This document shows positions 30,025 through 37,183 of a stretch of DNA of 64,000 bases, piece by piece. Every line of letters starts with the position of its first letter. Position 1 is the stretch's first letter. A model generated the notes under the pieces. It saw only the letters and a list, made by a program, of their open reading frames with translations. It was not told the DNA's origin and did no database searches. The stretch is from Noviherbaspirillum cavernae (lineage in GTDB: Bacteria > Pseudomonadota > Gammaproteobacteria > Burkholderiales > Burkholderiaceae_D). A program made the translations under genes and the position numbers. The stretch spans positions 2,728,001-2,792,000 of the forward strand of contig NZ_QYUN01000002.1 of NCBI RefSeq assembly GCF_003590875.1, in the 5' to 3' direction.

Positions 30025-31524
30025 TTACTCGTCGCCGCCCTTGAATCGGCGCAAGCCCTTGAAGACCATCGGCGCTATCAGTGCGATGACCGCGATGGCG
30101 ATCAGCGTGGCCGATACCGGATGCTTGAAGAACACCCAGGAATCGCCGAGACTGACTTGCAAGGCCCTGCGGAACTGGCTTTCCGCCATCGGCCCCAGGA
30201 TGAGGCCCACGATCATCGGTGCCACCGGATAATCCCAGCAGCGCATCAGATACCCGACCGCGCCAAAGACCACCAGCATGGTGAGTTCGACCACCGAGGG
30301 ATTTGCTGCCAGCGTTCCCATCGAGGCGAAGACCAGGATGCCGGCATACAGCCATGCCTGAGGGATGGCGAGCAATTTGACCCACAGGCCGACCAAGGGA
30401 AGATTGAGTACCAGCAGCATCAGATTCCCGACGAGGAAGCTGGCAATCAAACCCCAGACCAACTCGGGATTGGTGGTGAACAAGAGCGGCCCCGGCACCA
30501 GCCCGTATTGCTGAAACCCGGCCAGCAGCATGGCGGCCGTCGCAGAGGTTGGCAGCCCGAGCGCCAGCAGGGGCACCAGGGTACCGGTGGCCGCGGCGTT
30601 GTTCGCCGCCTCCGGGCCGGCCACGCCTTCAATCGCGCCTTTGCCGAATTGCTCGGGATTCTTGGCAAGCCTGCGTTCCAGCGTGTAGGACAGCAGCGTG
30701 GGCACCTCGGCACCGCCCGCCGGCAGCGCACCGATCGGAAATCCGAGCAGCGTGCCGCGCAGCCACGCCTTCCAGGAGGATTGCCAATCCTTCAGTGTCA
30801 TCCACAAGGAGCCGCGTACCGCCTCCACCTTCTCGACAACGCCGGTGAAACGCGAGGCCATGTACAAGGCCTCGCCCATGGCAAACAGGCCGACGGCAAG
30901 TGTGGTGATCGAGATGCCATCCAATAATGAGGGAACGCCGAAAGCCAGCCGCGCCTGACCGGTCAGTTTGTCGATGCCGACCAGTCCGAGGAACAATCCC
31001 AACGACAGGCTGGTGAGGCCGCGCAGGACGGAGTCGCCAAACGTGGCCGAGACCGTAATGAAGGCGACCACCATCAGCGCAAAGTAATCCCATGGCCCGA
31101 ACCGGACCGCGAGTTCGACAATCCATGGCGCCAGCACCGCCAGCCCGATGGTGGCAATCGTGCCTGCGACGAATGAGCCGATCGCGGCAGTCGCAAGCGC
31201 AGGACCGCCGCGACCGGCACGGGCCATTTTGTAGCCTTCGATTGCCGTGGCAATCGAGGCCGCCTCGCCGGGAGTGTTGATCAGGATCGCCGTGGTGGAA
31301 CTGCCGTACATGCCGCCGAAATAAATACCGGCAAACATGATGATCGATCCGGTCGGGTCCAGCTTGAACGTCACCGGAAGGAGCAAGGCCACCGTGAGCG
31401 ACGGACTGATACCCGGCAGGATGCCGACCAGCGTGCCAAGCAGAACGCCGATACCGGCGAACAGCAGATTGCCGGGCTGCAGAGCGACCCAGATGCCCTC
31501 TGCCAGGAGTGCAAAAATATCCAT
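30025..31524 (-). CDS. tctA: Tripartite tricarboxylate transporter, large membrane subunit TctA
   Basis: A 499-residue protein with about twelve membrane helices and the TctA landmarks [47 protein letters not shown] and [19 protein letters not shown]. It is the channel of a proton- or sodium-driven importer for citrate-like acids that needs TctB and a TctC binding protein. AAGGGG lies before the ATG. The usual short gap to tctB is replaced by a 279-base stretch filled by a hairpin array, which may alter tctA expression. Confidence 0.95.
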
Positions 31525-31536
31525 GAATTCCCCTTG

Positions 31537-31803
31537 GAGCGTCTAACAAAATGATTCTGAGGGTGTTGCGCCCCTTGCAGGGCGCACCTTGGCTGGCAAG
31601 CCAAGGCTGCTACGCAGGCGCAAAGCATGCTTTGCGAATTCCCTGCTTCGCCCTTGCCGTACAGGCGTACTGTCTGCGGCGGCGCCCTTGCAGGGCGCGC
31701 ACAGGCTTGCATGCCTGTGCCGTTTCGCAGGCGGGCAGCAGGCTGCCCGAATTCCCTGCTCAACCCTACTCAGAACCGCTTCGCTTCATTGTGCTAGACG
31801 CTC
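31537..31803. repeat. Hairpin-array element with terminal inverted repeats between tctB and tctA
   Basis: The ends form an imperfect 17-base inverted repeat: GAGCGTCTAACAAAATG at 31537 and the complement of 31787-31803, 15 of 17 identical. Inside are six strong hairpins: 31567-31586, 31587-31606, 31619-31636, 31682-31698, 31699-31720 and 31732-31749. The scaffold repeats with a 112-114 base period (GCAGGCG, GAATTCCCTGCT), while the stems differ between copies yet stay perfectly paired. Loops centre on TTGCA, GGCA or CATG. There is no gene inside. It fills the whole tctB-tctA gap and ends one base before the tctB stop codon. It may be a MITE-like insertion or a transcript-processing element. 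Confidence 0.8.
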
Positions 31804-32307
31804 TTAGCCCAGCAGCAGTTTCTCCAGCGGGCCCGCTGGCAGCGACAATGAAAGCGCCTTGGTAAAGAACACGTAGACGGCGATGCTGAGTACCAGGCCA
31901 TACACCGGGCCGAGCGACTTCAGCGAACGGCCGAATCCGCGTGCGGTGGCGACAAAGAGAATGGTCGACGAGACGACGAAACCTGCCCCAAACGCCAATG
32001 CGGCAATCTGCACGATCAGGCCGCCGAGTACCCAGGCCAGCGCGCGCGGATTGCCCTTTTCTCCCTGATGTGGCGCCTGCTGCTGCTCCCCTCGCTTGCG
32101 CCACGCCTGCACGAGGTGCGCCACCCCGAGCACGGTCAGCAGGGCAGCGACCAGCTTCATCGCCACCGAGGGACCGACGCCCGGACCGGTACTCACCGCC
32201 AGCCGGAACGCATCGGCGAAGGTCAGGCCTGCAAGCAGCAGCAGCACGACGCCGACGATCAGCGGCGCCCGCCACACGGGCGCCTTCCTGACGTTGCCGT
32301 CGATCAT
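31804..32307 (-). CDS. tctB: Tripartite tricarboxylate transporter, small membrane subunit TctB
   Basis: A 167-residue protein with four predicted membrane helices, as usual for TctB: APLIVGVVLLLLAGLTFADA, AMKLVAALLTVLGVAHLVQA, LGGLIVQIAALAFGAGFVVS and GPVYGLVLSIAVYVFF. It ends LSLSLPAGPLEKLLLG, the typical TctB C-terminus. It forms the membrane complex with TctA. Its ATG overlaps the tctC stop codon (ATGA), so the two are coupled. The downstream gap to tctA holds the hairpin array. Confidence 0.92.
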   Translation of the reverse strand: MIDGNVRKAPVWRAPLIVGVVLLLLAGLTFADAFRLAVSTGPGVGPSVAMKLVAALLTVLGVAHLVQAWRKRGEQQQAPHQGEKGNPRALAWVLGGLIVQIAALAFGAGFVVSSTILFVATARGFGRSLKSLGPVYGLVLSIAVYVFFTKALSLSLPAGPLEKLLLG

Positions 32308-37025: not shown

Positions 37026-37060
37026 AAAAAAAAAGCCCGCTGACCTTGCGGTAGCGGGCT
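37026..37060 (-). terminator. Minus-strand intrinsic terminator without an obvious gene
   Basis: AGCCCGCT at 37034-37041 pairs with AGCGGGCT at 37053-37060. The A tract at 37026-37034 becomes nine T on the minus strand. In plus direction the stem is followed by GAATCC, so it cannot end the gntR transcript by the classical mechanism. Confidence 0.65.
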
Positions 37061-37183
37061 GAATCCAATTCAAAGGAGAGTTGGAGGAGACAGATTTCAT
37101 TGTATGGCACCGCATCATATTTTTCCTCTTTATTCTTGTGATAGCAGATATGCGCAATCCTTATATCTGCACGCGACCCACAC

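Follow-up and report, generated by a model that had tools for sequence, protein, structure and literature searches.

Hairpins between tctB and tctA

Between tctB and tctA of Noviherbaspirillum cavernae lies strongly self-complementary DNA, at positions 31537–31803 of the 64,000-nt stretch that we analysed (the window), which raises the question of whether its stems belong to an RNA of the operon or to the DNA itself. The initial annotation had described six hairpins in a repeated 113-base scaffold with inverted-repeat ends, and the copies, the ends and the folds were all verified. The segments 31572–31654 and 31685–31767 are direct copies that start 113 bases apart and are 73% identical, with three hairpins in each and six in total, and an 18-nt inverted repeat (89% complementary) at 31537–31554 and 31786–31803 bounds the region. 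Folded as DNA the region gives z = −5.97 and, as RNA of the minus strand, z = −4.99, with 0 of 200 shuffles as good in either case. The stems quoted in that annotation are exact, and they differ between the copies yet are perfectly paired. Its proposal that the structure is either selected or specially made was right; its overall reading holds for the repeated cassette, the covariation and the inverted-repeat ends, but it missed two nested mobile elements.

The gene downstream of the insertion is tctA (30025–31524, minus strand), whose start codon lies at 31524 and which retains the AAGGGG before its ATG. The gene on the other side, tctB (31804–32307, minus strand), ends in the TAA stop codon that served as the target of the outer element. 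The identities of TctA, TctB and TctC are backed by Pfam. The gap between the genes runs from 31525 to 31803, and the claim that the element fills all of it holds for 31537–31803. That the region might be a local oddity, found nowhere else and identical in all relatives, was ruled out by many copies in this and other genomes: BLAST of 31537–31803 against the N. cavernae genome itself gave 110 matches at E ≤ 10, and the sole close tct orthologue (genome G005, tctA 89% identical) lacks the element, its tctB stop being followed after 9 nt by the tctA start. Relatives of tctA with 57–61% identity occur in six further genomes of the genus. Judging from its position, the element would be co-transcribed with the tct operon, and its role there is most likely just that of a hairpin-rich spacer. 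Elsewhere in the window, 37027–37092 (minus strand) matches the Rfam family Betaproteobacteria_toxic_sRNA (RF02278) with 64 bits and E 1.4e-10.

We consider it probable that the region is a nested pair of non-autonomous elements, in which a MITE has received IS200/IS605-like 78-nt elements that carry guides and whose arms are copied at the DNA level, the whole acting as a spacer in tct. As with the paired ends of an IS200/IS605 element, the 78-nt element would be mobilised as single-stranded DNA in its folded form, the cuts being made by an HUH/Y1-type enzyme that acts in trans. Close to the left hairpin, a guide of 3 nt would pair with a C-N-C triple in the flank, and another of 2 nt, ahead of the right hairpin, with the right end. 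The arms of each stem, and the C-N-C triple and its guide, would be kept complementary by DNA copying (template switching or hairpin repair), which may weigh more than selection on RNA.

The outer element is an IS5-family MITE

The outer element (31537–31803, plus strand) measures 267 bp with its two nested 78-nt elements and 111 nt without them. Its left terminal inverted repeat (31537–31554, plus strand) reads GAGCGTCTAACAAAATGA and its right one (31786–31803, minus strand) GAGCGTCTAGCACAATGA, with two substitutions. The TAA at 31804–31806 (minus strand), which is the tctB stop codon, is one copy of the target duplication, and the CAA at 31534–31536 (minus strand), one base off TAA, is probably the other. 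We found 24 distinct copies of this repeat in N. cavernae, with lengths of 111–112, 189–190 or 267–268 bp; ten contain no 78-nt unit, 11 contain one and three contain two. Identical TTA or TAA flank both sides of 14 of the 24 copies, and the remaining ten, including the window copy (TAA/CAA), differ at one or both sides.

The end pattern of the repeat was found in 24 of 392 family genomes. At least six of these 24, all related genomes, carry insertion sequence copies of 880–905 bp whose ends are those of the repeat bar one or a few mismatches. Open reading frame pieces scanned from three of six such copies gave one match to DDE_Tnp_1 (PF01609) and two to DUF4096 (PF13340), annotated as 'transposase of IS4/5 family'. 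Since insertion sequences with the same ends, TTA/TAA duplications and IS5-type transposase matches are all found, the outer unit belongs to the MITEs of IS5-family insertion sequences, and it entered tctB at its TAA stop. The autonomous partner is present in relatives; in N. cavernae, none was seen by eye among 63 matches to the terminal repeat (≤3 mismatches), and the single pair of terminal repeats more than 1 kb apart is, by eye, a MITE broken by another insertion. The repeat resembles IS5-family MITEs in sharing its terminal repeats with a full-length insertion sequence, in its 3-bp TTA/TAA duplication (in the 14 copies above) and in being short and gene-less, but differs from them in that its palindromic interior is the landing site of a second mobile element.

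Several single copies deserve description. A two-cassette MITE (L016/L004, G000:C2:1114959-1116487) is split by about 1.2 kb resembling another insertion sequence. At another locus (L183, G000:C2:2475894 onwards), a Y1 (RAYT-like) gene lies behind the start of a MITE; inverted repeats (GTAGGGCGGGTCCCACCCGCCAT) surround the gene, and the unit looks as though it had interrupted the MITE. By an uncontrolled count, the junction in ten of the 24 copies provides an in-frame stop for a reading frame open over 80 codons or more. The ends of four MITEs (L009, L015, L013 and L186) have substitutions mirrored at both terminal repeats, such as GAGGGCCTGAC at both in L009, as if the two ends had perhaps also been copied from each other; one-sided changes in the terminal repeats are also common.

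Nested 78-nt elements and the pairing of their arms

Element 1 (31575–31652, plus strand; TTGCAGGG...TTCGCC) is preceded on its left flank by the triple CCC (31572–31574, plus strand), which complements the guide GGG at 31580–31582; in ten unoccupied MITEs the same site reads CGC in nine and CGT in one. Its left-end hairpin (31587–31606, plus strand) has the stem CCTTGGCT/AGCCAAGG, and its right-end hairpin (31614–31646, plus strand) has an outer stem GCAGG/CCTGC, an inner stem CGCAAAG/CTTTGCG and a 5-nt bulge, AATTC. Element 2 (31688–31765, plus strand; TTGCAGGG...TCAACC) is likewise preceded by CCC (31685–31687, plus strand), complementary to GGG at 31693–31695, at a site that reads CGC in seven and CGT in three of the ten unoccupied MITEs. 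Its left-end hairpin (31700–31719, plus strand) is CACAGGC/GCCTGTG, and its right-end hairpin (31727–31759, plus strand) combines the outer GCAGG/CCTGC with an inner CGGGCAG/CTGCCCG. The 113-base spacing is just the distance separating the two insertion sites within the MITE.

Removing exactly 78 nt (TTGCA...CACC) per insertion restored a length of 111–112 nt in every one of the 14 occupied MITEs that the end pattern had detected. Of these, 11 held one insertion and three held two (17 insertions), and after the cut they showed 2–12 differences from the consensus of unoccupied copies. By eye, this cut also fits a host repeat of G528, a genome from a family other than that of N. cavernae (TCCCTCAC joined to CCCCAACCCC), and another N. 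cavernae host (CCATCCCCAC joined to CCTAACCC). A boundary starting at the 'CCC' was dropped, as the 78-nt cut fits. Insertion of IS200/IS605 elements makes no target duplication, and none was seen here, the 17 insertions at three MITE sites being exactly 78 nt. Occupied and unoccupied copies together thus show that 78-nt hairpin elements entered the MITE at C-N-C triples and left no duplication. The insertions would predate the spread of MITE copies.

The 78-nt family (the cassette of our searches) is widespread. In N. cavernae there are at least 50 matches to the cassette model at E ≤ 1, 32 of them with at least 83 bits (75 aligned positions), among 150 of 2642 candidates that were scored, so these numbers are lower bounds. 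The family was found in at least 28 of 60 genomes at E ≤ 0.01 and in at least 13 of 160 genomes of the order, from seven families, at E ≤ 1e-6 (N. cavernae included in both), with stricter filters over 40 genomes, so that copy numbers are again lower bounds. G528 alone has 81 matches, 70 of which were used in the counts below, and a contig search gave at least two pattern matches in Keguizhuia sedimenti. The cassettes sit in the IS5 MITE (two left sites and one right), in other palindromic repeats and in a tandem array. Genome G011 has five tandem copies of a shorter form, 67–69 nt apart (L135, G011:C25:118585-118925).

This distribution bears on whether the cassettes move at all. They could be immobile themselves and spread only by being carried within MITEs and other repeats, while homologous recombination exchanges their stems; many do sit within other repeats, and variants among the G528 copies recur in combinations, which suggests recombination between copies. 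However, two left sites only 3 nt apart and one right site in the MITE, together with the unrelated hosts, would need several independent insertions, and we regard the cargo explanation as improbable.

We then come to what maintains the pairing. In nine diverse cassettes, 98.6% of 207 stem cells were paired and 11 of 23 pairs had two-sided changes; 0 of 500 shuffles reached either the pairing or the two-sided value, 30 of 500 reached the number of further pair types, and versions with the partners slid were 33–43% paired. We extended the count to 55 distinct cassettes (31 own and 24 relatives), after a filter by length and scaffold that reduced 44 own rows to 34 and 79 relative rows to 28. Their 770 stem cells comprised 742 Watson–Crick, 12 G-T, 14 A-C and two other pairs; the search model rewards stems and so inflates the paired fraction, a bias that touches the comparison of G-T with A-C less. 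Most loop positions are dyad-symmetric as well, with Watson–Crick matches at 132 of 165 loop positions on the left and 97 of 110 on the right. Selection on RNA would favour G-U over A-C, yet G-T is no commoner than A-C; therefore, the pairing looks like a DNA-level property, and with the symmetric loops the data do not point to an RNA element of the tct operon.

Selection for RNA pairing, in a structured RNA or in a regulator internal to the operon, is accordingly very improbable in our judgement. The strong predicted fold of the minus strand and the location within the operon speak for it, but the wobble pairs and the loops just described do not, and neither do the presence of the cassette in unrelated hosts and locations and its absence from the close orthologous operon in G005. 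Rfam gave no match in the region at gathering level, and at a lax threshold two weak ones (E 1.3 and 8.7). Covariation in a bacterial intergenic region thus need not imply a structured RNA.

The 70 similar G528 copies allow single-event and selected paired changes in DNA hairpins to be tested against each other. Both arms were changed in 60 cells (54 Watson–Crick), compared with 1–5 when the partners were slid by 1–4 columns and with 59 cells changed in one arm. Pair 2-10 accounts for 32 of the 60 and probably reflects one inherited event; the left hairpin stem (columns 15–22) had no double change in the 70 copies. In copies that differ from a main haplotype by no more than four changes there were seven types of two-arm change, five of which keep a standard pair, and 32 one-arm types; one-arm changes are frequent, suggesting that one-arm mutants are tolerated for a while. 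Double changes were many times more frequent at true than at slid partners, an excess that we interpret as copying of one arm from the other, helped by recombination among the copies; the left stem, with no double change, speaks against this. Hairpin-maintaining template switching, as described in PMC8794818, likewise yields double changes that preserve pairing, whereas here the hairpins are mobile DNA at high copy in one genome and the mechanism is one that we infer.

Guides, flanking triples and the mobilising enzyme

In IS608, guides lie 5′ of each hairpin and pair with the cleavage sites, and guide-directed targeting has been altered by engineering (PMC5934647). Here, guides that differ between natural copies go with correspondingly different flanks, and the copies are numerous enough for statistics. 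Full complementarity between the flank and the left guide, a triple five bases inside the element, was seen in 31 of 33 copies from N. cavernae and 23 of 24 from relatives when repeated loci were counted once (32 of 34 and 27 of 28 when all were counted) and in 68 of 70 from G528; the flank/guide types were CCC/GGG, CAC/GTG, CGC/GCG and TCC/GGA. On the right, position 39 is matched by the fourth base past the hairpin, a pair (39-79) outside the search model that was T-A or C-G in 54 of 57 copies from N. cavernae and its relatives and in 65 of 70 from G528. This pair covaries with p = 3.4e-12 (own and relatives, two rows dropped) and 3.5e-5 (G528), and the left guide in G528 follows its host repeat (33 CAC to 8 CCC in H-A, 1 to 19 in H-B and H-C together; p = 1.2e-8 for 61 of the 70 rows, after omission of seven in unclassified hosts and two whose triples were of other kinds), p values that overstate independence because the copies are related.

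Comparison with empty sites added a further feature. At the MITE sites, all 30 unoccupied cases (ten copies) have CGC or CGT and all 17 occupied ones have CCC; the latter span three sites and are not 17 independent events. By eye, neither left site had CCC in any of four more diverged unoccupied MITEs outside this count. In G528, the H-B site is CTC in 27 and TTC in one of 28 unoccupied cases and CCC in nine and CAC in one of ten occupied cases, and the unoccupied H-A site is CAC in six and CAT in two of eight. The triple at an occupied site therefore matches the guide even where unoccupied sites differ, and is not simply retained as in IS608. A tentative and rather unlikely extension is that these gene-less single-strand elements retarget naturally, guide and triple being matched after insertion by hairpin-templated copying, with the same copying diversifying the paired end hairpins; if so, each landing could write a new guide or rewrite the site.

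The 78-nt element shares with IS200/IS605 elements such as IS608 its subterminal hairpins, insertion 3′ of a short sequence, guides and lack of duplication, but it is only 78 nt long, has no gene and uses CNC, not TTAC. Also unlike IS608, its guide is only 5 nt from the triple, and the triple is altered to match the guide. A literature search by sequence words and topic, in a scope with few subscription journals, returned no description of this 78-nt family, of its natural guide/site covariation or of its nesting in an IS5 MITE.

An unlikely alternative to the IS200/IS605-like reading would class the 78-nt unit with REP/REPIN elements, moved by a stand-alone RAYT-like Y1 protein (L052 in N. 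cavernae and L293 in G528, alike by eye). Hairpin repeats with alternative complementary stems and a stem bulge also characterise the REP/REPIN systems of RAYT/TnpAREP, as described in PMC3733652, PMC3116915 and PMC8266576. The same sources had already reported alternative complementary REP stems and REPs that sit inside longer palindromes, as here (PMC3733652), compensatory changes in REPIN hairpins (PMC3116915) and a stem bulge required by Escherichia coli REPs (PMC8266576), and template switching at hairpins is likewise published (PMC8794818). In contrast, we saw no GTAG/CGTC tag at a fixed place, the right end being mostly TNCACC by eye with N variable; there are two different hairpins plus guides, and no cassette was found beside a RAYT at the loci checked. 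Frequent G-T pairs are reported for GTAG-family REPs in PMC3733652, whereas here there is no G-T excess.

Y1 proteins were found in all eight cassette genomes searched, and in that search G528, with its 70 copies examined, and G011 show one each, in keeping with the REP/REPIN alternative. A relative of L052 occurs in 44 of 60 genomes, namely in 25 of the 28 with cassettes and 19 of the 32 that lack them (p = 0.018), but this link follows phylogeny because 34 of 36 genomes of the N. cavernae family have the protein. Y1 genes flanked by cassettes were ruled out at the loci checked, as none of 44 Y1/RAYT loci (40 distinct places) had a cassette nearby (best match 16.4 bits); no transposase gene bounded by the cassette ends was thus found, which speaks against the IS200/IS605-like reading too. 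Of the four Y1 genes in N. cavernae, three appear different by eye; beside two of these three lie inverted repeats beginning GTAG or ATGGCGGG..GTAGGG. The L052/L293 protein is thus a candidate mobiliser only. A lagging-strand bias gave no signal in a hand count of 13 cassettes outside MITEs on contig C2, eight being leading-like and five lagging-like.

Beyond chromosomes, a search of phage records gave no match, two Cupriavidus metallidurans plasmid records have eight cassette places, and among viral contigs one had the cassette pattern and one a MITE end. A 5.5-kb contig filed as viral (L156, IMGVR_UViG_3300035109_000003) carries two cassette relatives, at 670–745 and 1916–1991.
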